The position numbers and the translations under genes were made by a program. The notes under the pieces were generated by a model, which saw only the letters and a program-made list of their open reading frames with translations, was not told the origin of the DNA and did not search any database. Positions 745-59,536 of a stretch of 64,000 nucleotides of DNA are shown here, piece by piece. The stretch is from contig NZ_CP076326.1 in assembly GCF_018771565.1 (NCBI RefSeq), forward strand, positions 930,001 through 994,000. Direction: 5' to 3'. Within the stretch, counting starts at the first letter, position 1. Each line of letters opens with the position of its first letter. This DNA comes from Thermoflexus hugenholtzii. GTDB taxonomy: Bacteria; Chloroflexota; Anaerolineae; Thermoflexales; Thermoflexaceae.

Positions 745-3700
745 ATGCCGCGGCGCACCGACATCCGCTCCATCCTGGTCATCGGCTCCGGGCCGATTGT
801 GATCGGCCAGGCGGCCGAGTTCGACTATTCGGGGACCCAGGCCCTCAAGGTCCTGCGGCGGGAAGGCTATCGGGTGATCCTGGTCAACTCCAACCCGGCC
901 ACCATCATGACCGATCCCGAGATGGCCGATGCCACCTACATCGAGCCCCTGGTCCCGGAGATCCTCGAGCGGATCATCGCCCGAGAGCGGCCGGACGCCT
1001 TGCTCCCCACCCTGGGCGGCCAGACCGCCCTGAACCTGGCCATGGCGTTGCACGAACAAGGGGTCCTGGAGCGCTACGGGGTGGAGCTCATCGGCGCCTC
1101 GCCTCAGGCGATCCGCATCGCGGAGGACCGCCTCGCTTTCAAAGAGGCGATGGAGAAAGCCGGCCTGGAGGTCCCCCGCAGCGTCCTGGCCCGCTCCGTG
1201 GAGGAGGCGCTGGCCTTCGCCGAGCAGGTGGGCTACCCGGTGCTCATCCGCCCTTCCTTCACCCTGGGCGGCACCGGGGCCGGCGTCGCCCGTTCCCGGG
1301 AGGAGCTGATGGATCGCGTGGATCTGGCGCTGCGCCTTAGCCCCGTCGGCTCGGCCCTCATCGAGGAGTCCCTTCTGGGCTGGAAGGAGTTCGAGCTGGA
1401 GGTGATGCGGGATCGCCACGACAACTTCGTGGTGGTGTGCTCCATCGAGAACCTGGACCCCATGGGCATACACACCGGGGATTCCATCACCCTGGCCCCG
1501 GCCCAGACCCTCACGGACAAAGAGTATCAGCGCATGCGGGACTGGGCCCGGGCGGTGATGCACGCGGTGGGAGTGGAGACCGGCGGCTCCAACGTCCAGT
1601 TCGCCGTGAACCCCCGCGATGGCCGGATGCGGGTCATCGAAATGAACCCGCGGGTTTCCCGCTCCTCCGCCCTGGCCTCCAAGGCCACGGGCTTTCCCAT
1701 CGCCAAGATCGCCGCGCTCCTCGCAGTGGGCTACACCCTGGACGAGCTTCGCAACGAGATCACGCGGCGCACGGTGGCGGCCTTCGAGCCGGCCATCGAT
1801 TACGTGGTGGTGAAGATCCCCCGGTGGACCTTCGAGAAGTTCCCCGGCGCCGATCCGACCCTCGGCCCCCAGATGAAATCCGTGGGGGAGGTGATGGCCA
1901 TCGGGCGGACCTTCAAGGAGGCGCTCCAGAAGGCGATGCGGGGGTTGGAGATCGGGGCGAAGGGCTTTGAGGGATTCCCGCCTGAGCGGCGGCCCTCCGA
2001 TCTGCGGGCTGCCCTGGCCTGCCCGAACCCGGATCGTCTGCGGGCCGTCCACGACGCTCTGATGGCCGGGATGCCGGTCCAGGAGGTCGCCGCCCTCACC
2101 GGATACGACCCCTGGTTCGTCGTTCAGATGGCGGAGCTGGTCGAGCGGGAACGGGAGCTGCGCCGCTACACCCTGGCCACGGTCCCGGCAAGCCTGTTGC
2201 GCCAGGCCAAGCGGGAGGGGTTCTCGGACGCCCAGCTGGCGGCCTTCTTCGGCTGCACGGAGGAGGCGGTCCGCCGCCGCCGAGAAGCTCTGGGCATCCG
2301 CCCACGCTACGCCCAGGTGGACACCTGCGCGGCGGAGTTCGAGGCTTACACGCCCTATCTTTACAGCACCTACGAGGAGAGCGACGAGGCCCCGCCGACG
2401 GATCGCCCCAAGGTGGTGATCGTCGGCAGCGGCCCCAACCGCATCGGGCAGGGGATCGAGTTCGATTACAGCTGTTGCCAGGCCGCCTTCGCCCTGCGGG
2501 AGCTGGGAATCGAATCGATCATGGTGAACTCCAACCCGGAGACGGTGAGCACGGACTACGACACCTCGGATCGCCTGTATTTTGAGCCGTTGGCCCTGGA
2601 GGATGTGCTGAACATCGTCGAGCGGGAGCGGCCCCTCGGCGTCATCGTGCAGTTCGGGGGGCAGACGGCCCTCAACCTCACCATGCCCCTGCACCGCGCC
2701 GGGGTGCCCATCCTGGGCACCTCCCCCGACGCCATCGACCTGGCGGAGGATCGAGGGCGGTTCAGCGCCCTGTTGCGGGACCTGGACATTCCTCAGCCGG
2801 AGCATGGGACGGCGACGTCCGTCGAGGAGGCCCTTGAGGTCGCCCGGCGCATCGGCTACCCGGTTCTGGTCCGGCCCAGCTACGTCCTGGGCGGGCGGGC
2901 CATGGCCATCTGTTACGATGAGGAGACCTTGAAGGCCTATATGGCCGAAGCGGTGTGGGTCTCCCCGGAGCGACCGGTGCTGATCGATCGCTTCCTGGAA
3001 GATGCCTACGAGGCGGAGGTGGATGCGGTGGCGGATGGGAAGCGCGTGGTCATCGGGGGCATCCTCCAGCATATCGAGGAAGCAGGGGTGCACTCCGGAG
3101 ATTCCGCCTGCGTGCTGCCGCCCTACAAGATCTCCCGCTATCACCTCCAGATCATCGAGGAATACACCGAGCGGATCGCCCTGGCCCTGGGGGTGCGGGG
3201 GCTGATCAACATCCAGTTCGCGATCAAGGACGACATCGTCTACGTCCTGGAGGCCAACCCGCGGGCCTCCCGCACCGTACCCTTCATCAGCAAAGCCACC
3301 GGGGTTCCCCTGGCCCGCATCGCCACCCGGGTGATGCTGGGGCAGTCCTTAGAGGAGATCGGCTTCACCCGTTCGCCGGAGGTCCGGGCGTTCTTCGTGA
3401 AGGAGGCGGTCCTTCCGTTCCGCAAGCTGCCGGGCGCGGATGCCATCCTGGGCCCTGAGATGAAATCCACCGGCGAGGTGATGGGCTGGGCGGAGACCTT
3501 CGGCCACGCTTTCGCCAAGGCGGAGATGGCCGCTGGGGACGCCCTGCCTCTCCACGGGACGGTGTTGCTCTCTGTGAACGACTTCGATAAGGGGAGCGTG
3601 TTGAAGATCGCCCGGGACTTCCACCGTCTGGGCTTCCGGTTGATGGCCACCCGGGGCACGGCGGAAGCCCTGCGGCGCGTGGGGTTGCCGGTGGAGGTGG

Positions 3701-3963
3701 TAAACAAGGTAAGCGAGGGCTCTCCCCACGTGGTGGACGCCATCCGGGAAGGGCGGGTGCAGCTGATCCTGAACACCCCCCTGGGCCCGCGGGCCTATAC
3801 CGACGGCATGCGGATCCGCCAGGCGGCCGTGCGTTACGGGGTGCCGCTGCTCACCACCCTCTCCGCCGCCGCCGCAGCCGTCCAGGCCATCCGGGCCATG
3901 CGGGAGCGGGATTTCACGGTGATGAGCCTGCAGGAGCACTACGCCCGAAAGCGCAGCGCATGA
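745..3963 (+). CDS. carB: Carbamoyl-phosphate synthase large subunit
   Basis: CarB makes carbamoyl phosphate from bicarbonate, ammonia and two ATP. The 1072-residue product has the family's usual length and internal duplication: two ATP-grasp halves, each opening with a GSGP-I-IGQ nucleotide-binding segment (near residues 13 and 560), and a C-terminal MGS-like allosteric domain ([16 protein letters not shown] onward). The ATG at 745 begins [17 protein letters not shown], matching the standard N-terminus, and has a gaggtgg ribosome site; the longer upstream extension in frame is not typical. It forms a probable carAB operon with the gene before it. Confidence 0.97.
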
Positions 3964-3994
3964 GGAGTTCCACCCTGGAGGAGACGGGTCGAAG

Positions 3995-4501
3995 ATGAAG
4001 AAAAGGGGGATCTCCATGGATCTCGGGACCGCTGTCGTGCTGATCCTCGCGGCGGTGATGGTGGGCGTTGCCTATGCGCGGGGCGGGGAGGTGGCGGCGG
4101 CCGGATGGCGGGGGGTGGGGCGGGCCGTGCGCGACTTCCTACCGCTCTTCCTCGGGATCTTCATCCTCATCGGCTTCTCGGAAGTCCTGATCCCCCGTGA
4201 GGTCATCGCGCGGTGGCTGGGGCCCAGCTCGGGCTGGCGAGGGATTCTGATCGCCAGCGGGGTGGGGATGCTGATCCCCGGCGGGCCCTTCGTCTCCTTC
4301 CCCCTGGTCGCGATGCTCTATCGGGCCGGAGCCGGCATAGGCGCGGTGGTCGCCTTCGTCACCGCCTGGTCCCTCTGGTCCCTCACCCGGCTGCCCCTGG
4401 AGTTCGCCCTCCTGGGCCCGCGCCTGATGATGGCGCGTCTGATCTCCACCCTGTTCATGCCCCCGCTGGCCGGATGGATCGCCCACCTGCTCTTCGATTG
4501 A
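3995..4501 (+). CDS. Small predicted permease (UPF0718/DUF318-like, half-size)
   Basis: This is a 168-residue integral membrane protein with about five hydrophobic segments. A glycine/proline-rich motif, GMLIPGGPFVSFPLVAML, sits in the middle; such motifs occur in the predicted permease family related to YraQ, of which this would be a half-length member. The substrate is unknown. The ATG at 3995 has a ggaggag site about 11 nt upstream; a second ATG at 4016 is possible. It starts 31 nt after carB and may be read with it, but nothing ties it functionally to carbamoyl phosphate. Confidence 0.75.
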   Translation: MKKRGISMDLGTAVVLILAAVMVGVAYARGGEVAAAGWRGVGRAVRDFLPLFLGIFILIGFSEVLIPREVIARWLGPSSGWRGILIASGVGMLIPGGPFVSFPLVAMLYRAGAGIGAVVAFVTAWSLWSLTRLPLEFALLGPRLMMARLISTLFMPPLAGWIAHLLFD

Positions 4502-4578
4502 CCCTTGTCGACCTTGGGATGAGATCCGGGGAGGGGGAAGCGGCGCCGCTTGACTACAGATCGGCAAAGGCTAAAATC

Positions 4579-4598
4579 TTAATTGATCGATCAATTAA
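4579..4598. promoter_or_regulatory. Perfect 20-bp palindromic operator upstream of tetR gene
   Basis: The sequence TTAATTGATCGATCAATTAA is a perfect palindrome in an otherwise GC-rich region, about 85 nt before the TetR-family start codon. Such AT-rich, even-length palindromes near a TetR-family gene are typical self-binding sites, so it probably autoregulates the repressor and the downstream exporter. Binding itself is inferred. Confidence 0.7.
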
Positions 4599-4682
4599 TT
4601 TTGAGGCTTTTGAGGCGCGGCATCGGAGGACACGCAGGCTCCTCCGGCCTGAACTTTTTCACACATCCGGCGGGGGGAGGAG

Positions 4683-5324
4683 ATGGGCAAGGGGGCTGGC
4701 CGGCATCGGGACCGGGATCGTGAGGCCATGCGTCAGCGCATCATCGAAGCCGCCTTCCGGGTTTTCCTTCGCAAAGGCTTTCGGGGGACCTCCAACCGGG
4801 AGATCGCCCGGGAGGCGGGGATCTCGCCGGGCCTGATCTACTGGTATTTCCGGAACAAGGAAGACCTCTTCCGGGCCGTGGTGGAAGCCAAATCCTTCGC
4901 CCTCCCCTTGAGGCGCCTGGCCCGCACGATGGGGACGGCTCCGCCCCCGCAGTTCCTCGCCGGGGTGATGGAGATCGTCCTCTCCCTGTATGAGGACCCG
5001 GCCATGATCGCGGCATTGCAGTTGCTGCTGCCCGAGGCGATCCGCAACGGCCGGGTCCGGCGGGTCCTCGTCAGCCGGGCGATCCGCCCGGGTATGGAGG
5101 CCATCGCCGCTTACCTGGCCGCGCAGCAGGCCAAAGGGACCGTGCGCCCGTTGGATCCCCGGGTCGGCGCCCGCCTCTTCATGGGCCTCATGTTCTCGCA
5201 GGTCATCCTGGGCCATCTGCTGCGCCTTCGGTTCCCGGTGCCGGCCCGTCAGCTGTTCGCGGAGGCCCTGGAGGTGTATCTACATGGGATCCTGAACCCG
5301 GAAACCGGGGGAGGTTCGGCGTGA
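4683..5324 (+). CDS. TetR/AcrR-family transcriptional regulator
   Basis: This is a 213-residue one-component repressor. An N-terminal helix-turn-helix (IIEAAFRVFLRKGFRGTSNREIAREAGIS) runs into the family signature GLIYWYFRNKEDLF; the remaining ~150 residues are a divergent helical ligand-binding domain. The ATG follows a strong ggggggaggag ribosome site. A perfect palindrome at 4579-4598 is its likely operator. It immediately precedes an ABC exporter on the same strand and probably controls it in response to an exported compound. The ligand cannot be read from the sequence. Confidence 0.93.
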   Translation: MGKGAGRHRDRDREAMRQRIIEAAFRVFLRKGFRGTSNREIAREAGISPGLIYWYFRNKEDLFRAVVEAKSFALPLRRLARTMGTAPPPQFLAGVMEIVLSLYEDPAMIAALQLLLPEAIRNGRVRRVLVSRAIRPGMEAIAAYLAAQQAKGTVRPLDPRVGARLFMGLMFSQVILGHLLRLRFPVPARQLFAEALEVYLHGILNPETGGGSA

Positions 5325-6549: not shown

Positions 6550-6930
6550 ATCTGTTCTTGTAGGAGCGGCTTTAGCCGCGACCTCCTGCGTCATCAAAGA
6601 CGGAGGTTCGGGACGAAAGCCCCTCCTACGTAAGCCGAAATTCATTTCGGCATCCTGGCTCTAAGAGCGACTTCCGCCACGACCATCGAAGGCAGGGATT
6701 GGGGTTTAAAACTCGATCTCGACGTCTGCAGACGGTCAGGTGTTCTCTGTACCGGCTGAGTCGAAATAAATTTCGACTTACAGAGAACCTTGCGTCATCG
6801 AAAACCGAAGTTCGGGGCTAAAGCCCCTCCTACAGAAGCGGCTTCAGCCGCGACCCTTGCGTCATCGAAGACCGAAATTCGGGCTGGAGCCCTTCCCGCA
6901 AGAAGATCAATATCTCATCTTCAGCGAATT
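6550..6930. repeat. Island of REP-like palindromic repeats
   Basis: No gene is visible here. The stretch holds palindromes of the type TAGGAGCGGCTTTAGCCGCGA and GGGGCTAAAGCCCCTCCTACA, alternating with a TGCGTCATCGA spacer. There is also a nested hairpin at 6742-6788: outer arms gttctctgta/tacagagaac and inner arms agtcgaaat/atttcgact. The same family, in opposite orientation, forms the tandem array at 59675-60115. The repeats run almost to the start codon of the next ATPase gene, leaving no clear ribosome site for it. Confidence 0.85.
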
Positions 6931-7860
6931 ATGGCTGGCGAAGCGGTGTGGGTCGAACATCTGGAGAAACGATTCGGGGCAGTGCATGCCCTCCGGGATC
7001 TCTCGTTCGTGGTGGAGGACGGAGAGATCTTCGGGATCATCGGGCCGGACGGGGCGGGGAAGACCACGCTGCTGCGTCTCCTCGCCGGGGTCCTGCGGCC
7101 GGATGCAGGGACGATCCGGGTGCTGGGGCGGGATCTGCTGCGTGAGCCCGAGCGGATCCGTCGATCCCTGGGTTACATGCCCCAGAGCTTCAGCCTCTAT
7201 GGAGATCTCACAGTCCGCGAGAACCTATCTTTCTTCGCGACGATGTATGGATCGCAGGACCCCGAATGGATCCGGCGGATGCTGGGCTTCGCCCGCCTGG
7301 AGCCGTTCCTGGATCGCCGGGCGGCGCAGCTCTCCGGGGGCATGCAGAAGAAGCTGGCCCTGATCGGGGCGATGGTCCACCGGCCCCGCTTGCTGCTCCT
7401 GGACGAGCCCACCACGGGGGTGGACCCGCTGTCGCGGCGGGAGCTCTGGGATCTGCTCAGCGAGTTCCACGTGCAGGGAGTGACCATCATCGTCACCACC
7501 CCGTATCTCGATGAGGCGGAGCGCTGCACCCGGATCGCCCTGATGCACCAGGGACGGATGCTGGCCGTGGATGCACCGGGGAGGCTCCGGTCTGCGTTCC
7601 GTCATCCGGTGCTCGAGATCCTCGCTCAGCCGGTCCTGCGGGCCCAGGCGGCCCTGGCCGCCCATCCGGCGGTTCTGGAGGCTGTGGTCCTGGGAGATCG
7701 GGTGCGGGCGGTGGTCCGGGAGGACGGGGTGGCCCTTTCCGAGCTCGTCGCAGCGCTGCGGGCGCTTCCGGGGATCGAGGTCCAGGAGGCCCGCTGGGCC
7801 CCTCCGCGTCTGGAGGAGGTGTTCGCCTACCTGATGCGTCGGGAGGGAGGCCGTGGCTGA
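6931..7860 (+). CDS. ABC transporter ATP-binding protein (first of two)
   Basis: This is a 309-residue nucleotide-binding subunit of a multidrug/lipid-type exporter. Walker A reads GPDGAGKTT (Asp where most have Asn, as in the first ATPase half of RbbA-like proteins). The signature is LSGGMQKKL, Walker B is LLLLDEPTTGVDP, and the C-terminal ~90 residues form a small regulatory region. The ATG at 6931 starts MAGEAVWVEHLEKRFG, the normal N-terminus; upstream in-frame sequence is only translated repeat DNA. Its stop overlaps the start of the second ATPase, so the two are translationally coupled and probably form a heterodimer. Confidence 0.93.
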   Translation: MAGEAVWVEHLEKRFGAVHALRDLSFVVEDGEIFGIIGPDGAGKTTLLRLLAGVLRPDAGTIRVLGRDLLREPERIRRSLGYMPQSFSLYGDLTVRENLSFFATMYGSQDPEWIRRMLGFARLEPFLDRRAAQLSGGMQKKLALIGAMVHRPRLLLLDEPTTGVDPLSRRELWDLLSEFHVQGVTIIVTTPYLDEAERCTRIALMHQGRMLAVDAPGRLRSAFRHPVLEILAQPVLRAQAALAAHPAVLEAVVLGDRVRAVVREDGVALSELVAALRALPGIEVQEARWAPPRLEEVFAYLMRREGGRG

Positions 7861-8824
7861 GGTGGTGGTCCGAGCGGAGCGCCTGACCCGACGGTTCGGC
7901 GCGTTCACCGCCGTGGACCATATCTCCTTCGAGGTCAGGCGGGGGGAGATCTTCGGCTTCCTGGGGCCGAACGGGGCGGGGAAAACCACCACCATTCGCA
8001 TGCTGCTGGGGTTGCTGGAGCCCACAGAGGGCCGGGCATGGGTGCTCGGGTATGACGCCGCCCGGGAGACCGCGCGCATCCGCCCGCGCGTCGGTTACAT
8101 GAGCCAGCGGTTCAGCCTGTATCCCGATCTCTCCGTGGAGGAGACGCTGCGGTTTTATGGGGCCGCTTATGGATTGCCCGTCCAACGGCTCCGGGAGCGG
8201 ATCCCGACGTTGCTGGAGCGGCTGGATCTGGCCGGGCAGTCCCGGCGTCTGGTCCGTCACCTGGCGGGAGGCTGGCGGCAACGGATGGCCCTGGCGGTGG
8301 CCCTGCTCCACGAGCCGGAGATCATGTTCCTCGATGAGCCCACCGCGGGGATGGACCCCCTGGCCCGCCGGGAGATCTGGGCGTTGCTTTACCAGCTGGC
8401 CGAGCGGGGGGTGACGATCTTCGTCACCACGCATTATATGGATGAGGCCGAGCAGTGCTCCCGCCTGGCGCTCATCCACAACGGGCGCCTGCTGGCCCAG
8501 GGAACCCCTTTCGAGCTCAAGGAGCGGGCGGGGCCGAGGGGGATCGTCGCGGTCTCCGCCACGCCGCTGGAGCGGGCTTTCCTTCTCTTGCGGGACTGGC
8601 CCTTCTTCCAGCACGTCGCCTTCCACGGCGCCCGGATCCACGCCTATCCCCGGGATCCGGGGCTCTCCATCGAGGAGATCCGCCGCCGTCTGGAGGAGGC
8701 GGGCCTGGAGGAGATCTCCGTGGAGTGGATCCGTCCTTCTCTGGAGGATGTGTTCCTCTGGCTAGTGGATCAGGCAGCGCAGGAGGCGGAACTCCCCTCG
8801 CGGTCAGGAGGTGCGCTTCGATGA
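7853..8824 (+). CDS. ABC transporter ATP-binding protein (second of two)
   Basis: This is a 323-residue ATPase subunit. Walker A is GPNGAGKTT, the signature is the variant LAGGWRQRM, Walker B is IMFLDEPTAGMDP, and the switch His lies in VTTHYMDEAE. The GTG start at 7853 overlaps the end of the preceding ATPase by 8 nt, and its TGA overlaps the next ATG (ATGA at 8821-8824). This tight coupling supports a single exporter complex with the two ATPases, the upstream permease and the two HlyD-type adaptors. The set resembles an unfused version of the YhiI-RbbA-YhhJ system. Confidence 0.93.
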   Translation: MAEVVVRAERLTRRFGAFTAVDHISFEVRRGEIFGFLGPNGAGKTTTIRMLLGLLEPTEGRAWVLGYDAARETARIRPRVGYMSQRFSLYPDLSVEETLRFYGAAYGLPVQRLRERIPTLLERLDLAGQSRRLVRHLAGGWRQRMALAVALLHEPEIMFLDEPTAGMDPLARREIWALLYQLAERGVTIFVTTHYMDEAEQCSRLALIHNGRLLAQGTPFELKERAGPRGIVAVSATPLERAFLLLRDWPFFQHVAFHGARIHAYPRDPGLSIEEIRRRLEEAGLEEISVEWIRPSLEDVFLWLVDQAAQEAELPSRSGGALR

Positions 8825-51438: not shown

Positions 51439-51461
51439 GGGCGATCCCCTTGCGGGTCCTT

Positions 51462-51489
51462 GGGGTGGCGGCCGCGCGGCCGCCACCCC
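51462..51489. terminator. 28-bp perfect GC palindrome
   Basis: GGGGTGGCGGCCGC at 51462-51475 is followed immediately by its exact reverse complement (51476-51489). It lies between the protease stop and the next ATG. In RNA it forms a strong hairpin; without a T-run it may be a stabiliser or weak terminator. Confidence 0.5.
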
Positions 51490-51516
51490 GTCCTCTCCTC
51501 CGATAAGGGGGTTGAG

Positions 51517-54500
51517 ATGTTCACCCATTCCGCACGCTGGATGCGCAGGGCGATGGCGCTGGCGGCGGTGGCGATGATCCTGGTCGGGGCGGTCCCGACA
51601 GGGCCGGCCGCCCCGACCCCGCCGACCAAGCCCACGGTGGATCGCATCATCATCTTCGCCGCGGACGGGATGCGCCCGGACCTGATGGAGCGCTACGCCC
51701 GGGAAGGGTTGATGCCCACCTTCGCTGAGCTCCTGCACCGGGGCGCGGTGGGGGAGAACGGCCTGATCCAGGCCTTCCCGCCCAACACCGGCGTGGGCTG
51801 GTATACCCTGGCCACGGGCACCGGGCCCGGCGAGCACGGCTCCACCAACAACACCTTCCATCGCACCGGAGATGTGTTCACCGGCAGGACCTCCTTCGCG
51901 ACCTTCGGCATCCTCCAGGCGGACACCTTGCTCCAGGCGGCGGAGCGGGCCGGCAAGAAGGTGGCCTCCGTGGAGTGGGTGGGCGCCCGCAACCTGAACC
52001 CACCTCTCCAGGGGCCGGTGGTGGATTTCCGCACCTTTTTCTCCATGCGGGGGGTCCTGGTGAACTATGATCTCCCCGGGCAGCCCGCCGGGGCCCAGGC
52101 CTTCGGTCTGGCTTATGAGCGGGTGGACCTCCGGCCGGCGGCGGGCTGGACGAACCTTCCCCCATCCTTCAGCCCGCCGATGGAGGCGGTGCTGGTGATC
52201 ACCTCCACGGCGACCGCGGTGAACCCCCACCGGACGTATTACGTGCTGATCTACGACAGCACGGATGACGGACGAACCGATTACGATCGAGTGATCCTGG
52301 ACACCGACAAGGATGCGAGCGTGGTGGCCGCGAACCTCCGGCAGGGGGAGTGGGCGGATATCAAGGTCTCCCTCACCGGCTCCCGCGCAGGCCAGACCGC
52401 CGGCTTCTACGTCAAGGTGATCGATCTGACGCCGGACCTCTCCCGCTTCCGCCTTTACTTCACCTCGGTGACCCGGATCAACGCTTCCTTCAACGCCCGG
52501 GGCGCGGAGGGCTCCCAGGCCTTCGAGGAGACCCTCGCGCGGGACTTCCCGACGGCCACGGCGGCGGATTTCGCACCGCTGGAGGCCGGGCTGGTGGATG
52601 AGGAGACTTATGTGGAGCAGGGACTGTTCTGGGAGGACGCCCACCATCGCATCCTGGAATACATCCTCACCGTCGCCCAGCCGGACACGGAGGTCCTCTT
52701 CCTGGGCTATCCCGTCACCGATGAGTTCTCCCACCAGTTCATGGCCCTGGTGACCCCCACGGCGCCCGACGGGACGCCGAACCCGGTCTACGACGATGCG
52801 GACCGGGATGGGATGCCCGATGGCCGGGTGGCGGTCCGGGAAGGCTTCATCCGCCGGGCCTATCAGGGGGCTGACGCCACCCTGGGGCTGGCCCGTCGCC
52901 GGATGCCCGGTGCCGCCGTCTTCGCCTCCTCCGACCACGGCTTCGCCCCCCAGTGGAAAGCGGTCAACGCCCGCCGCGTGCTGTATGAGGCCAGCGTGAA
53001 GGGCGTCTCCCTGCACGCCAGCGGCGCCACGGCCACCGGCAACTGCGGCGCGGCGACCACAGACCTGGCCAAGGCCTGCTGGGCCGGCGGGACGGTGCAG
53101 ATCTACGTGAACCCCTCGTTGCCGTCCGGGATCACCTATGAGGATGTTCGTAACGCGGCCATCGAGGCCTTCGCCAACCTCCGGGATCCAGACCACCCCT
53201 CGGCGAAGGTGGTGGATCGCATCTTCAAGAAAGAGGAGCTCCGGAACCTCCCCGGCGGGGACTCCCTGCATCCGAACCGCAGCGGGGATGTGGTGGTGGT
53301 GCTCTTCCCGCCTTACCAGTTCGATGCCCCCACGCCGGGCGTGAAGATCGCCGACGCCCCCTTCTTCGGGCAGCACGGCTACATGCCGGACCTGGTGGAT
53401 CTGGAGCATAACATCAATATGCGTGCTGTCTTCCTCGCTGCCGGTCCGGGCATCCGCCCCATGCGGATCTCCGGCGTGCGGGCCATCGACTTCGCGCCCA
53501 CCATCGCCTTCTATCTGGGGATCCCTGGGCCGCGCAACGCCAGCGGGCGCATCCTTTATGAGCTCTTCGAGGGGCGGGGCCGCACCCATCACGATGTGAA
53601 ATGGAAGGAGATCACCATCCTGACCGTCAACGACTTCCACGGCAACCTGTTGCCGCGGAGCGAGCGGGCGGACACGGTGGGGCCTTCCTTCTCCATCGGA
53701 GGCGCGGCCTTCCTGAAGGCGTGGTTCGACCGGTTCCGGGCGGAGGCGCGCGGGGAGACCCTCATCCTGGCCGCGGGGGACTCGGTGGGGGCCACCCCGC
53801 CCATCTCCAACTTCTTCGGGGACCGGCCGACGATTGAGATCTGGAACATGGTGGGGCTCCATGCGGATGTTCTGGGGAACCATGAGTTCGACCGTGGGGC
53901 CACCTATCTGCGCACGGTCCTGATCCCGCTGGCCCGGTATCCGTATCTCTCCGCGAACGTGGTGGATCAGAGCACGTTGCGCACCCCGTCGGAGTGGAAG
54001 CCGTCCTGGGTCTTCGAGGTCGATGGGGTGCCCATCGGCGTGATCGGCTTCACCACCCCGGATACCCCTCAGCTGGTCTTCCCCGGCCGGATGGAGAACT
54101 TCATCGTCACCGATCCCCTGCCGGCCATTCAGCGGGAGGCGGACCAGCTGCGCGCCCGTGGGGTCCGGGTGATCGTCGGGGTCGGGCATCTGGGCGCGAT
54201 GGGCCCCCTGGATGCGCCGACCGGGCCGCTGATCGACCTGGCGGATCAGGTGCGGGGGTTCGACCTGCTGATCGGCGGCCACACCCACGCGCTCGTGAAC
54301 ACCATGCGGCCCAACGGGGTCCTGGTCGTCGAGAGCCTGGAATACGGGCGCCGCTTCACCCGGGTCCGGCTGGTGGTGGACGCGGACACGCGGCGTGTGG
54401 TCTACAAGACCGCTGATTATCACCTCCCGTGGAACATCGGCATGGCCCCCGATCCGGCCATCCAGGCCCGTCTGGATGAATTACAGGCGGAGCTCGCTCC

Positions 54501-55176
54501 TATCCTCAACCAGGTCGTCGGCCGCTCGAAGGTCGCCATCCCGCGGGCGGACGCCTGTGGCAACCCGCTGGGCCGCACCTGTGAGTCGAAGATCGGGAAC
54601 CTGGTGACGGACGCCATGCGGTTCACGTATGGGGTGGATTTCGCCATCACCAACTCCGGGGGCCTGCGGGCGGATCTCACCCGGGCGGGCGATGTGGATG
54701 CGGCGACCGGGTTCTTCAACATCCGGCGGGGCTACATCCTGGAGGTGTTGCCCTTCGGCAACGTGGTGGTGACCCTTCAGGTCAACGGGGCGGAGCTCAA
54801 AGCCATCCTGGAGAACGGCGTCTCCCGCATGCCCGCCGCGGACGGCCGGTTCCCTCAGGTCTCGGGCCTGTGCTTCACCTATGACATCGGCGCGCCGGCC
54901 GGCAGCCGGGTGGTGGGCGCCGTGCGCCAGGCGGCGGATGGCTCCTGCACCGGCCCCGCTGTGGACTTCTCCGCCGCGGCGACCTACACCATTGCCATGA
55001 ACGACTTCATGGCCTCGGGCGGGGATGGCTATCCGGTGCTGATCGGCCGGGCCTACACCCGTGAGCTGATGGACCAGGTCCTGGAGGCTTACGTTCAGGC
55101 CACCAGCCCGGTGGCCCCGGCCATCCAGGGCCGCATCGTCTGCACCGGGGCCGGCTGCCCAACCGTGACGCCGTAG
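51517..55176 (+). CDS. Secreted fusion of type I phosphodiesterase/alkaline phosphatase and 5'-nucleotidase
   Basis: This 1219-residue exported protein joins two hydrolases. After a signal peptide (~1-32), residues ~40-690 form an alkaline-phosphatase-superfamily domain: metal ligands in FAADGMRPD (Asp50), SSDHGFAP and GQHGYMPD, and nucleophile region [12 protein letters not shown], interrupted by a beta-sandwich insert (~210-340). Residues ~700-960 are a metallophosphatase ([28 protein letters not shown]). Residues ~990-1190 form the 5'-nucleotidase C-terminal substrate domain ([20 protein letters not shown]). Each half is full length. It may degrade extracellular nucleotides or phosphodiesters in series. 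ATG 51517 has an aaggggg site. Confidence 0.92.
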
Positions 55177-55239: not shown

Positions 55240-56283
55240 TTAAGGAGCCTCCCGCGTCCGAACCCAGGCCGTGCGGAGGATCCAGGCCAGGACGCCGAGC
55301 CCCAGGAGGAGGGTGATCAGGAAGAGGGCCACGCTCCCCCACTCCCCCCGCACGGGAACCTGCCCCAAATCCACCCACCGGCCGATCTCCGTAGCCTGGA
55401 CAACCTGCCGAGCGATGGCGTTGCTCAGGAGCACGCCGAGCTGCGCAAGGACCAGGGCCCCTGCTGTCCCACGACCCGGACGGACCCCATAGAGCCCGGC
55501 GAGCAGGGTCGCAAGGGGCATGCTGAAGGCCGCCGCCCGCTGCAATGCCGCCGGCAGCCGATCCGCCACCGTCGGCGCGTAAAGGCTCCCGGCCAGGCCG
55601 AAGAGCCCCAGGCCGATGATATACAACAAGGGAACCAGCGGCCGGACCTGGGCCGCGAGCTCTGGATCCCGACGTCCGAACCCGGCGAGCCCGGCCAGGA
55701 AGGCCGCCACCGTGCCGAAGGCCATCCCCGCCATCAGCCCCAGCCGGAGGAGCGCCTCCCGATCCAGGGCGAGGGCAAATCCATGGACGGCGCCCCCCGT
55801 CGCCGTGGCGCGGAAGATCCCCATCCATCCTTCGGGCCGGGCGGTCAGCGTCATGGCTGCGGCGAACTGGGCGCCAATCCACGTCAGCAGGAGGGCAGCG
55901 ATCAGGCTGGCGAGCACCCGCCAGCGCCCGAAGGCCGCCAGGTAAACCGCGGTGTAAGCGATGAGGAGCAGCGGGATGATCAGGAACCAGAACCAGGCCT
56001 GCAGGATGGTGGCCGGGTAGAAGAACTGAGGATAGAGGGTCTGCAGGAAGAGCAACGGGACGATCCCGGCGTTGATCCCGAAGGCCATGGCGAAGGGCAT
56101 GGCGGCGATCAGGCGCTCCGCGACATAGGGGCGGAACCGCCAGAGGGCCACCGCGACCGGCAACCCGGCGAGCCAGAGCTGCATGAAGGCCATGTGCAGG
56201 AAAAAGCCGAAGACCTTGAGGGCGAACAGGTAAACCGCCGGGATCGGCATCCCCAGGGGATCAGGCTTCGGGATGGGGGGCAT
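55240..56283 (-). CDS. Polytopic membrane protein, probable second subunit of the bd-type oxidase
   Basis: This 347-residue protein has about nine hydrophobic helices. No clear CydB signature can be read, but it directly follows the CydA-like gene, overlapping its stop by one base, as the second subunit of these oxidases usually does. The N-terminus (PAVYLFALKVFGFFLHMAFMQLWLAGLPVAVALWRF) has a His in helix 1 that might matter for haem packing. ATG 56283 is the coupled start; the longer upstream frame is shadow. Confidence 0.78.
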   Translation of the reverse strand: MPPIPKPDPLGMPIPAVYLFALKVFGFFLHMAFMQLWLAGLPVAVALWRFRPYVAERLIAAMPFAMAFGINAGIVPLLFLQTLYPQFFYPATILQAWFWFLIIPLLLIAYTAVYLAAFGRWRVLASLIAALLLTWIGAQFAAAMTLTARPEGWMGIFRATATGGAVHGFALALDREALLRLGLMAGMAFGTVAAFLAGLAGFGRRDPELAAQVRPLVPLLYIIGLGLFGLAGSLYAPTVADRLPAALQRAAAFSMPLATLLAGLYGVRPGRGTAGALVLAQLGVLLSNAIARQVVQATEIGRWVDLGQVPVRGEWGSVALFLITLLLGLGVLAWILRTAWVRTREAP

Positions 56284-57614
56284 CACGGCCCTCCTTTCTG
56301 CAACGCGACAAGATAAGCGATCAGGGCCTCCCGCTCCGCTTCGTTCCCCAGCCACGGCGGCATGGCCGGGTTGGTCCGATGCAGATGCCGGACGGCATCG
56401 GCGATGATCTCCGGGGTCCAGGGCTGGATCAGAGGGCGCATCCCGTTGTAGCCATCCAGGGCGTGACACGCGGCGCAATGATAGTTGTAAAGGGCCTCCC
56501 CGACCTGAACCTTCTGGGGCTCCGGAAGGCGGGCCGGATCCCGCAGGGCCTCCTCCGGCAACCCCAGGTTCTCCTGCAGATACTGTTGCAGCCAGGGGGA
56601 ATGGGCGATGAGGCCATCCCGTTGCAACGTGGGGACCTCTGCGACGCGGACGCCCGGGGAGAAAATATAGCCCTCAATGCGATACGGTTTGCGCGCTCCT
56701 TCCCGGAGGAACTCCCCGCTGGTGATGGCCACCGCCCCGATGAGGAGCATCAGCAGCGCCTCCGGCGGGTTGATCCAGCGGCCGCCCCGCAGGTGGCCCA
56801 GGCCGAAGGCGGCCAGGGCGATCAGCGTGGCTCCGAAATTCAAAGCGGTCATGATCAGCAGCAGCGGCGCCCGGACCATGTTCAGCCGCGCGTGATCCGG
56901 CAGCACGGCGAAGTAGCCGAGCCCGCCGATCAGGATGAGCGCCATGCCCGCCATGGCCCAGCGGGAGAAGCGGGGGATCATCTCCTCCCGCAAGGGCTCC
57001 GGGGCCCGAAGGGAGAGGTGCACCCCAATCCACAAGGCGGCGATGGCCAGCGACCCACCGGTCCGGATCAGCACCTGGGGCAGGAACGACGGGTTGAAGA
57101 AGGCCGTGAAGAAATCCCGCTCCGGGGTCCAGCGGCCCGTCGTGAGCATGAAGGAGGTGATCCCGGTGATGAGCACCAGGCTGAGCCAGGCCGATGCGGC
57201 GTAGATCCAGCCCATCGCCATATGCTCCCGGGGCCGCAGCCGATCCCAGAGGTAATAAAAGGCGAAGGCGGAGACGATCTCCAGGACGAAGACCACCCAT
57301 TCGGTCGCCCAGACGAAGACGAAGACGTGGATGAGGGCGCTGGTGCTCTCCGGCGCGGTGAGCCCGATGGTCCACCAGATGCCCACCCCGGTGACGGCCC
57401 CGAAGACAATCGTGAGCAGCACGAAGAAGCGGGCGAGATCCCGCAGGTAAGCCAGGACGTCCGCCCGACGATGCCGGTAGGCCCACGTCACGCCGTCCGC
57501 CAGGAGGAAGCCGCCCCCGACGGCGAACTGCGCAACGATCACATGGGGGATCGCCACCAGGGGGATCAGCATGGGGGCCGTGAGGAAGGGAACCACCCAG
57601 ACCGGATATTCCAT
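56283..57614 (-). CDS. Cytochrome bd-family oxygen reductase subunit I fused to cytochrome c
   Basis: This 443-residue membrane protein has the CydA pattern: IPHVIVAQFAVGGGFLLAD with His24 (haem b595 ligand position), TEWVVFVLEIVSAFAFYYLWDRL with the paired Glu residues, and AASAWLSLVLITGITSFML. After helix ~9 comes a soluble C-terminal cytochrome c domain: CAACH (Cys380, His384) with likely axial Met418 in NPAMPP. No quinol-binding Q-loop is apparent, and by eye the b558 His position reads Arg (VLIRTGG). It may therefore take electrons from a cytochrome c or other carrier instead of quinol. Members with cytochrome c tails are known in the bd superfamily. Confidence 0.88.
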   Translation of the reverse strand: MEYPVWVVPFLTAPMLIPLVAIPHVIVAQFAVGGGFLLADGVTWAYRHRRADVLAYLRDLARFFVLLTIVFGAVTGVGIWWTIGLTAPESTSALIHVFVFVWATEWVVFVLEIVSAFAFYYLWDRLRPREHMAMGWIYAASAWLSLVLITGITSFMLTTGRWTPERDFFTAFFNPSFLPQVLIRTGGSLAIAALWIGVHLSLRAPEPLREEMIPRFSRWAMAGMALILIGGLGYFAVLPDHARLNMVRAPLLLIMTALNFGATLIALAAFGLGHLRGGRWINPPEALLMLLIGAVAITSGEFLREGARKPYRIEGYIFSPGVRVAEVPTLQRDGLIAHSPWLQQYLQENLGLPEEALRDPARLPEPQKVQVGEALYNYHCAACHALDGYNGMRPLIQPWTPEIIADAVRHLHRTNPAMPPWLGNEAEREALIAYLVALQKGGP

Positions 57615-57793: not shown

Positions 57794-59536
57794 TCATCCG
57801 CCCAGCTGCACGCGCTTCTGCATCTGGAACATGGAGAGGATCTCTTTCACCGTGGTCGCGTCCTCCGGGCCTTTGTCCTCCCGGATCCACCCCACCACCC
57901 GTGGGAAGCGCAGGGCATAGCCGGGCTCCTCATCGGCCCGGCCACAGGTGTGGACCGGCGAGCGGGTGATCTCGTCCGCCAGCACCGTCAGCACATAGCG
58001 GGGCTCCACCCATACGTCGGGCTCCAGCAGCGAATCCACGCGGGCCGGCCGGTGCTCCACGCGGATGGCATCCAGCATCTCCCGGAGCCGCACCCATTCC
58101 TCCTCGGTGAGGCCGCTGCCGATCTTGGCCACCGTCTTGAAGGTGTCCGAATCGGGATCGTAAACCGCGCCCAGCAGGGCCCCGATGCCGAGCTTCGCCC
58201 GCATCCCCCGACCCCGGAAGTAACCCACCACCACGACGTCGATGGTGTCCGTCAGCTCGCCTTTGTAGGAGCGCTTGAGCTTGATCCAGTGGAACCCGCG
58301 GGCCCCCGCCTGATAGGGGGCGTCCAGGCGCTTGGCCACGATCCCCTCCATGCCCCGGGCGATGGCCTCGTCGAAAAACCGCTGGATCGCCCGCGGGTCG
58401 TCCGTGACGATGCGATCCACCAGGCGGATGCGGCCGTCGGGACGGATCCGCCGGGAGAGGGCCTCGAAGCGCGCGGCGTAGGGCTCCGGGGTGTAATCGT
58501 GGCCGTCGGCGTAGAGGAGATCGAAGGCGAACAGGACCAGCGGGTATTCCCGCATCATCTCCTCCACGCCGTGCTTGCGCTTGCGCTGGACCGTCACCTG
58601 GAAAGGATAGATCTCGCCGGTCTCCTCGTTGACGGCCACCGCCTCGCCCTCCAGGATGGCCTCCCGGGCGTCGATCTGCTGGCGGACCGCTTCGATGAGC
58701 TCGGGGAACATGGGGGTGGTGCGCTCCAGGTTTCGGGAGAAGATCTCCACCCGATCCCCGTCCTTGTGGATCTGACAGCGGAACCCATCCAGCTTCACCT
58801 CGACGGCGCACCGGCCCAGCTTCTGGACGATCTCCTCGGCGCTGGGGAGCCGCTCGGCCAGGGCAGGGCGGATCGGATGCCCGACGCGGATGCGGAAGGC
58901 GCGGATCCCCTCGATGCCCTGCTCGAAGAGGGTGCGGGCCACCAGGCCGAGGTCGGAGCACAGGTTATACGCCCGCTCCAGCTCCGGGCGCAGGCTGCGA
59001 TCGCCGGCTATCGCCTTCGACAGGGCGTCCAGGATGGTGGGGTCGCCCACGCCCAGGCGCAGGCGCCCCAGGACGAAGCGGGCGATGTAGCGGGCCTCTT
59101 TGGGGGAGGAGGCCTGGAGGAGCTCCGCCAGCATCCCCACCTTGCGCTCCACGCTGCCCTCCCCGGTGGTCTCGGCGATGCGCAGGAGGGCCTCGTAGAC
59201 CTCCGAGACGCGCAGGCCGGCGGAGCGGGCTTTCCGCTGTCGGAGCAGCTCCTCCACCACCAGCCCCGGATCCCCGCGCTCCTTGTTCAGCCGGCTGACC
59301 TGATCCTCCGTTGTCCCGGTGGCCCGGGCGATCGCCCGCAGGATCAGCTTCTCCGCCATGCCGATCTCGATCCCGCGGAAGGGCGGCAGCAGCTGCTCCT
59401 GGCAGAAGTAGACCACCTTGTCGATCTCCTCCCGATCGCACGCCCGGAAGAGCTCGCTGAGGATATCGAACATCTCCAGGCGCTTGGTCGTGGCCTCCAA
59501 CCGCTCGAAATACTCTACCAGCTCCGCGAACCGCAT
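57794..59536 (-). CDS. lig: ATP-dependent DNA ligase (archaeal LigB/LIG1 type)
   Basis: This 580-residue ligase has an N-terminal DNA-binding domain (1-215) with GRLRLGVGDPTILDALS, an adenylation domain with active-site KLDGFR (Lys248), EGEAVAVNEETG and EGIVAKRLDAPYQAG, KLKRSY (motif V), and an OB-fold C-terminus with RFPRVVGWIREDKGPEDATT. This is the replicative ligase type of archaea and eukaryotes; in bacteria it occurs in some thermophiles beside the usual NAD-dependent LigA, probably in repair. It stands alone. The 179 nt up to the oxidase operon hold no gene. Confidence 0.95.
   Translation of the reverse strand: MRFAELVEYFERLEATTKRLEMFDILSELFRACDREEIDKVVYFCQEQLLPPFRGIEIGMAEKLILRAIARATGTTEDQVSRLNKERGDPGLVVEELLRQRKARSAGLRVSEVYEALLRIAETTGEGSVERKVGMLAELLQASSPKEARYIARFVLGRLRLGVGDPTILDALSKAIAGDRSLRPELERAYNLCSDLGLVARTLFEQGIEGIRAFRIRVGHPIRPALAERLPSAEEIVQKLGRCAVEVKLDGFRCQIHKDGDRVEIFSRNLERTTPMFPELIEAVRQQIDAREAILEGEAVAVNEETGEIYPFQVTVQRKRKHGVEEMMREYPLVLFAFDLLYADGHDYTPEPYAARFEALSRRIRPDGRIRLVDRIVTDDPRAIQRFFDEAIARGMEGIVAKRLDAPYQAGARGFHWIKLKRSYKGELTDTIDVVVVGYFRGRGMRAKLGIGALLGAVYDPDSDTFKTVAKIGSGLTEEEWVRLREMLDAIRVEHRPARVDSLLEPDVWVEPRYVLTVLADEITRSPVHTCGRADEEPGYALRFPRVVGWIREDKGPEDATTVKEILSMFQMQKRVQLGG

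Follow-up and report, generated by a model that had tools for sequence, protein, structure and literature searches.

The locus described here raises the question of whether a bd-type oxygen reductase can dispense with quinol and draw its electrons from cytochrome c. It lies in a 64,000-nucleotide stretch of the Thermoflexus hugenholtzii genome (the window), in which an original prediction had picked out a single CydA-like gene with a cytochrome c tail and called its product an unusual terminal oxidase. The protein is indeed unusual in having a fused cytochrome c and no quinol site, but its kind is not unprecedented: in the excerpts consulted, the bd superfamily is divided by sequence into families named qOR, OR-C, and OR-N (PMC13189123), only qOR has a quinol site, and two of the three families are described as probable users of a donor other than quinol, such as cytochrome c (PMC8509429, citing Murali et al.). 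A non-quinol donor is also discussed, in passages of PMC10839748 and PMC12324825, for OR-N and for the bd-like oxidases of Nitrospira. We consider it likely, with a probability of about 0.7, that two genes in the window encode a bd-superfamily membrane complex that reduces O2 with electrons from cytochrome c.

The first gene occupies positions 56283 to 57614 on the minus strand as an open frame (residue 1 at 57614) and encodes a 443-aa CydA-like subunit with a C-terminal cytochrome c domain. Residues 1–308 (56691 to 57614, minus strand) constitute a bd-type membrane core, assigned from alignments, hydropathy, and the helices of an AF2 model, with eight predicted helices. The Pfam family Cyt_bd_oxida_I (PF01654) matches best over residues 20–209 (E 2.5e-13; 49.8 bits against a cut-off of 26.2). 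The c-type cytochrome domain spans residues 369–435 (56310 to 56510, minus strand), contains a CxxCH motif at residues 380–384 and Met418, and is matched along its length by Cytochrome_CBB3 (PF13442; E 9.9e-11; 42.3 bits against a cut-off of 27), a stretch recovered again in a genome-level PF13442 search. The gene is thus real and joins a bd-superfamily CydA core to a c-type cytochrome domain. Its product is the only PF01654 protein above the cut-off in its own genome (3.32 Mb, one contig). A second match (G000:C1:997109-997408; E 7.4e-4) fell below the cut-off and was rejected as chance; it sits in a large protein (L002, C1:995609-998908 of the same genome) that by eye resembles an O-antigen ligase with TPR repeats.

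Hydropathy analysis reveals eight hydrophobic segments in the CydA-like protein, with 4 Lys/Arg residues in the even loops and 14 in the odd loops. Both ends should therefore lie outside, and the cytochrome domain is predicted to be periplasmic. The ninth CydA helix is likewise predicted to be missing, by a method crude enough to find seven segments in E. coli CydA, which has nine helices. An AF2 model built from four sequences (pLDDT 60.8, pTM 0.48) also contains eight long helices, with residues 236–321, including the turn between helices 6 and 7 as well as Glu301 and Glu305, below pLDDT 50. In a Foldseek search with this model (pLDDT 60.8), bd oxidase chains fill the first 20 rows, CydA in ten and CydB after them, with nine rows below E 0.001 (best 8.4e-5). 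VIA-align with the same model yields Z scores of 13.5–15.1 to ten CydA chains and 10.1 to the next protein, a polysulfide reductase membrane subunit; for helical bundles, values below about 13 on this scale may carry no meaning. By hhalign, the window protein's family matches an OR-N-like CydA profile at 99.2% (E 1.2e-19) and a quinol-type CydA profile at 97.1% (E 5e-11), against controls of 0.1–0.4% (three reversed profiles), 0.3% (CydB), and 1.3% (COX1). When the protein or its family was searched by sequence against the PDB, mostly c-type cytochromes and no CydA were listed; the relation to CydA is therefore drawn from Pfam, the profile comparison, the ligand pattern, and the fold, and these bear out the bd-type core that had been proposed.

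Ligand positions were compared in an alignment of 20 proteins comprising the window protein, two congeners, six distant full-length relatives, six OR-N-like proteins, four quinol-type CydAs from Chloroflexota, and E. coli CydA, where the labels "OR-N-like" and "quinol-type" were given from motifs and resemblance and are not tied to reference OR-N sequences. Conservation was counted a second time across 11 aligned rows of the window protein's group. The residues marked by these alignments in the core are His24, His96, Glu105, Glu112, Arg184, Glu301, Glu305, and Arg308. In E. coli CydA, His186 and Met393 ligate haem b558, while Glu445 and Glu99 serve the other two haems (PMC6853902, in the sections consulted). 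The active-site positions are kept, with E. coli His19, Glu99, Glu445, and Arg448 corresponding to His24, Glu105, Glu305, and Arg308; E. coli Glu107 corresponds to Glu112, which is Asp in the six distant rows. The retention of active-site His and Glu residues noted in the original prediction is confirmed. All nine group rows of the 20-protein alignment retain the equivalents of His19, Glu99, and Glu445 and are missing those of His186, Met393, Lys252, and Glu257. His24, Glu105, and Glu305 are invariant in 11 of 11 group rows, as are the CxxCH motif and Met418, so that the haem c residues Cys380, Cys383, His384, and Met418 are fixed throughout and the predicted C-terminal CxxCH domain stands. 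His96 and Glu301 are also both invariant in the group (9/9 rows in one comparison and 11/11 in another) and are absent from the OR-N-like and quinol rows.

The quinol-binding side of the protein has fared differently. Lys252 and Glu257 of the Q-loop fall in a deletion in 9/9 group rows, and six residues separate helices 6 and 7 in the AF2 model (within the stretch of pLDDT under 50); the quinol loop is gone, as had been anticipated. The b558 His is lost as well. Its column holds Ile183 in the window protein and His in none of the 11 rows (I, A, I, M, L, M, M, L, L, M, and M). An Arg had been placed here by the original prediction, which was off by one: Arg184 aligns with E. coli Thr187, one past the His186 column. 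This Arg is invariant in the 11 group rows and occurs at the same position in five of the six OR-N-like rows, there after a retained His. The Met393 column contains Asn259 in the window protein and its two congeners and Val, Ile, or Leu in the six distant rows; because the hhalign match to CydA spans only about 190–215 columns, this equivalent is less certain than that of His186, and loss of the b558 Met is a prediction. With both ligands apparently missing, the haem b558 site looks absent, whereas it had been described as altered.

Since neither the b558 His, the b558 Met, nor the Q-loop was recovered in the 20-protein alignment or the 11 rows, cytochrome c, and not quinol, remains the best reading of the electron donor. 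The complex could still be a quinol oxidase whose quinol site is of a new type, independent of the Q-loop, with haem c as an accessory. The membrane location would suit such an enzyme, and the partner subunit described below could form a quinol site that its sequence does not reveal, but the absence of the Q-loop, Lys252, Glu257, and the b558 ligands, together with a cytochrome domain whose CxxCH and Met are invariant in 11 of 11 rows, makes this decidedly improbable.

A tree of 24 rows, with cytochrome tails cut off, separates the window group (13 rows), the quinol rows (5), and the OR-N-like rows (6) with support of 100/100, 100/100, and 81/81, respectively. Within the bd superfamily, the window group is thus a separate clade, apart from both other sets. 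The closer relation of this group to the OR-N-like rows is not firm because long branches meet, as the tree program warns.

A second gene, which the single-gene picture of the original prediction had overlooked, follows directly at 55240 to 56283 on the minus strand and encodes a 347-aa partner subunit. Its start codon, preceded by a AGAAAGGAGGG stretch, overlaps the stop of the CydA-like gene (TGATG). A partner gene adjoins every full-length relative checked. The partner is probably a very divergent CydA paralog that keeps only the active-site His: its His30 aligns with E. coli His19 and is invariant in 10 of 10 partners, and the positions of Glu99 and Glu107 are occupied by Phe100 and Leu107. 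By hhalign, a profile of nine partners matches the OR-N-like CydA profile at 85–88% (E 3e-6 to 6e-6), a pooled OR-N-like and quinol profile at 96.3% (E 2e-9; 318 columns), and a pool of all 20 CydA-like rows at 94.8%, against 0.1–3.2% for seven controls (five reversed profiles, single-sequence CydB, and COX1). High scores come from pooled profiles only; single subgroups match weakly (6.4% for quinol; 27.6% and 7.0% for two OR-N-like subsets of three rows each), and the window protein's own family gives 0.3%. Pfam offers no credible family for the partner, the best candidates being B12D at 0.92 and PRD1_DD at 0.028 in one of ten members, and a PDB profile search gave phage fibre proteins alone, at 0.06. 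Its AF2 model (pLDDT 52) is too poor to interpret; the resulting Foldseek list starts with a CydB and then a CydA chain, at E 0.21 and 0.36. Identification of the partner as CydB was considered and rejected, with no CydB Pfam match in the partner and an hhalign score of 0.1% against E. coli CydB (a single sequence). A search of the whole genome for CydB (PF02322) likewise gave no match, with 10 of 14 control genomes positive.

The two-gene arrangement recurs well beyond this genome. Three close relatives among the named genomes, two labelled Thermoflexus and one Chloroflexota, are 88–95% identical in their best segments. Among 301 genomes drawn from the phylum, 49 contain some match at E 1e-3, and in nine (10 loci) the match covers most of the length with an E value below 1e-30; the partner adjoins the CydA-like gene in all 10 of these long, strong loci. 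Their matched ranges mark the weaker phylum matches as either different CydA-like proteins or isolated cytochrome domains. Among 346 genomes of the class, a set that overlaps the phylum set, 32 have some match and 15 fall below 1e-30, two of these being shorter (to residues 329 and 343). These class matches take in six of the nine listed genus genomes and, in a different family, a protein of 45% identity; completeness is 76–94% for the three genus genomes that gave no match. The partner is also present at L077 (the 45% relative), L078, L079, L081, and L033–L035, and at contig ends in L080 and L042, with L081 and L042 belonging to the 10 phylum-set loci. By eye, the reading frame of the CydA-like gene in L033 (2189–3715; Thermoflexus MAG contig 629H.11) seems to be interrupted close to its start, with the initial residues lying in another frame. 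In another Chloroflexota genome, L045 carries two CydA-like genes about 2 kb apart (3382–4707 and 6709–7986), of which one has the Glu99 equivalent and the other does not; they may be an OR-N-like CydA/CydA' pair.

Both window genes are under purifying selection relative to close relatives. For the CydA-like gene, dN/dS is 0.08, 0.10, and 0.10 against L034, L035, and L044, respectively, and for the partner it is 0.22 against L034 and identically 0.22 against L035; against the more distant L077 both genes come to 0.55, with dS close to 1, from which little can be read. Canonical ligands have been lost and three of the nine genus genomes gave no match, as might befit a CydA that has decayed, lost its function, and acquired a cytochrome domain by chance fusion. 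The low ratios of the CydA-like gene, a fusion and ligand set common to distant families at 28–45% identity, and the constancy of the partner gene render that explanation exceedingly improbable.

An ATP-dependent DNA ligase gene (57794 to 59536, minus strand; PF01068, E 2.5e-58) lies 179 bases upstream of the CydA-like gene on the same strand, and a convergent gene lies downstream of the two-gene unit. A 1238-aa frame at 51460 to 55176 on the plus strand appears by eye to combine a phosphodiesterase/alkaline phosphatase-like half with a 5'-nucleotidase-like half, the latter bearing an NDFHGN motif that we take to be 5'-nucleotidase-like; a similar frame comes after both genes in L034 and L044. 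No sigma-70-like promoter was found between 54900 and 58000. At L078, a gene for a lipoprotein-like c-type cytochrome directly precedes the CydA-like gene. In the wider genome there are 12 Cytochrome_CBB3 stretches, including that of the CydA-like protein, as well as two NrfD proteins; one of these is encoded some 250 bases from a Fer4_11 match, a neighbourhood that would fit an alternative complex III.

The substrate of the complex may be O2 or NO, O2 being suggested by analogy with the superfamily. A cytochrome c-dependent nitric oxide reductase, or an NO/peroxide detoxifier, on a bd scaffold in place of a respiratory oxygen reductase is an unlikely alternative. Eight of 10 distant loci (L038, L039, L040, L042, L043, L079, L080, and L081) have a Crp/Fnr-type regulator gene upstream in the same orientation; these eight are not all independent, as several come from one genus, and in five the Crp/Fnr domains were checked. 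Such a regulator fits NO or redox chemistry as well as O2, but Crp/Fnr proteins also control oxygen-related genes, and the search found none at L041, L078, or L077 or in the Thermoflexus loci. The genome already encodes three COX1-family proteins above the cut-off, so a further oxidase is not needed; one of these, however, may itself be a nitric oxide reductase. By eye, this protein (L068, C1:1372915-1374201 of the same genome) has the active-site stretch GHPAQQ where oxidases have a His-Tyr motif. Three candidate Thermoflexus species are also described with a nitrous oxide reductase in the part of PMC8129789 consulted, which would agree with NO chemistry.

Respiratory O2 reduction with cytochrome c remains our preferred reading, and the retained residues suggest how it might proceed. 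The donor would be a periplasmic c-type cytochrome, itself fed by a quinol:cytochrome c oxidoreductase. Electrons would enter at the His-Met haem c of the C-terminal domain (Cys380, Cys383, His384, and Met418) and pass straight into a putative two-haem site held by His24, Glu105/Glu112, and Glu305, reaching the haem near Glu305 first and then that near His24 and Glu105. Glu305 closes helix 8, immediately ahead of the cytochrome linker, a position that would place haem c over the active site. In quinol bd oxidases this task falls to the Q-loop, absent here, and to the low-spin haem b558, apparently lost. The partner, probably a degenerate CydA paralog, would substitute for CydB, and its His30 may bind one haem. 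A fuller version of this scheme is tentative, and we put it at somewhat under even odds: an enzyme with neither a low-spin haem b nor CydB, in which a fused periplasmic haem c would feed the two-haem site of one CydA, a nearly ligand-free CydA paralog would replace CydB, the clade-specific His96 and Glu301 would give electrons or protons a new route, and the two-haem site would contain b-type haems only. No CydD above the cut-off was found in this genome, which makes haem d doubtful; the best match scores 139.9 bits against 435, covers profile positions 318–524, and is taken for the ATPase part, whereas five of 14 control genomes pass. The complex could in principle do no more than transfer electrons, perhaps between cytochrome c and quinone, without O2 reduction. 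Such a role was once proposed for the bd-like protein of Nitrospina, a nitrite oxidiser, in the part of PMC3578206 consulted, but no quinone site is seen in the alignment of the window group and the two-haem ligands are kept, and we regard a module of this type as very unlikely.

How does the complex compare with known systems? Homology over the active-site core, including the equivalents of His19, Glu99, and Glu445, places the CydA-like subunit within the bd superfamily. It shares the CydA fold and the equivalents of His19, Glu99, Glu107, Glu445, and Arg448 with the canonical CydAB enzymes (E. coli 6rko, Geobacillus 5doq), but differs from them in its fused cytochrome c and in having no Q-loop, b558 ligands, predicted ninth helix, or CydB. 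None of the qOR features (a Q-loop with Lys252 and Glu257; the b558 ligands, with the Met column less sure; a CydB partner) was found. In helix 3, the two Glu residues stand one residue closer together than in E. coli, whose CydA has a Leu101 insertion relative to Geobacillus (PMC6853902, in the sections consulted). The OR-N or CydAA' proteins of Nitrospira and Nitrospina resemble the window complex, in the portions of PMC10839748, PMC3578206, and PMC12324825 surveyed, in having no quinol-binding residues, a proposed cytochrome c donor, and two CydA paralogs proposed to associate. The window protein nevertheless forms a clade separate from the OR-N-like rows, six of six of which keep the b558 His that it lacks and have no letters at the CxxCH columns. 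In the Nitrospina bd-like protein, three helices are described as replacing the Q-loop (PMC3578206, in part); the window protein has eight predicted helices.

The use of a fused cytochrome c as electron entry recalls the caa3-type haem-copper oxidases, terminal oxidases with such a fusion whose catalytic subunit is unrelated to the bd family. A 346-aa frame upstream in L066 resembles by eye a caa3-type subunit II. A literature search gave no title on a cytochrome c-fused CydA or on the Thermoflexus protein among the matches listed, which is no evidence that it is unpublished, and no laboratory test of the cytochrome c-fed bd type was found in the excerpts surveyed. The two-gene candidate, from a thermophile and with its own cytochrome c, would make a convenient test case for a cytochrome c-driven bd active site and bears on whether haem b558 and CydB are dispensable. 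Its most likely published home is OR-C, to which it is likened by the described features of that family. The OR-C family of Murali, Gennis and Hemp (2021) reportedly carries haem c, and the window protein has the corresponding domain within CydA (PF13442, with invariant CxxCH and Met). It also has a CydA core with active-site ligands, no quinol residues, a predicted non-quinol donor, and a branch of its own, and is probably an additional member of this sequence-predicted kind.
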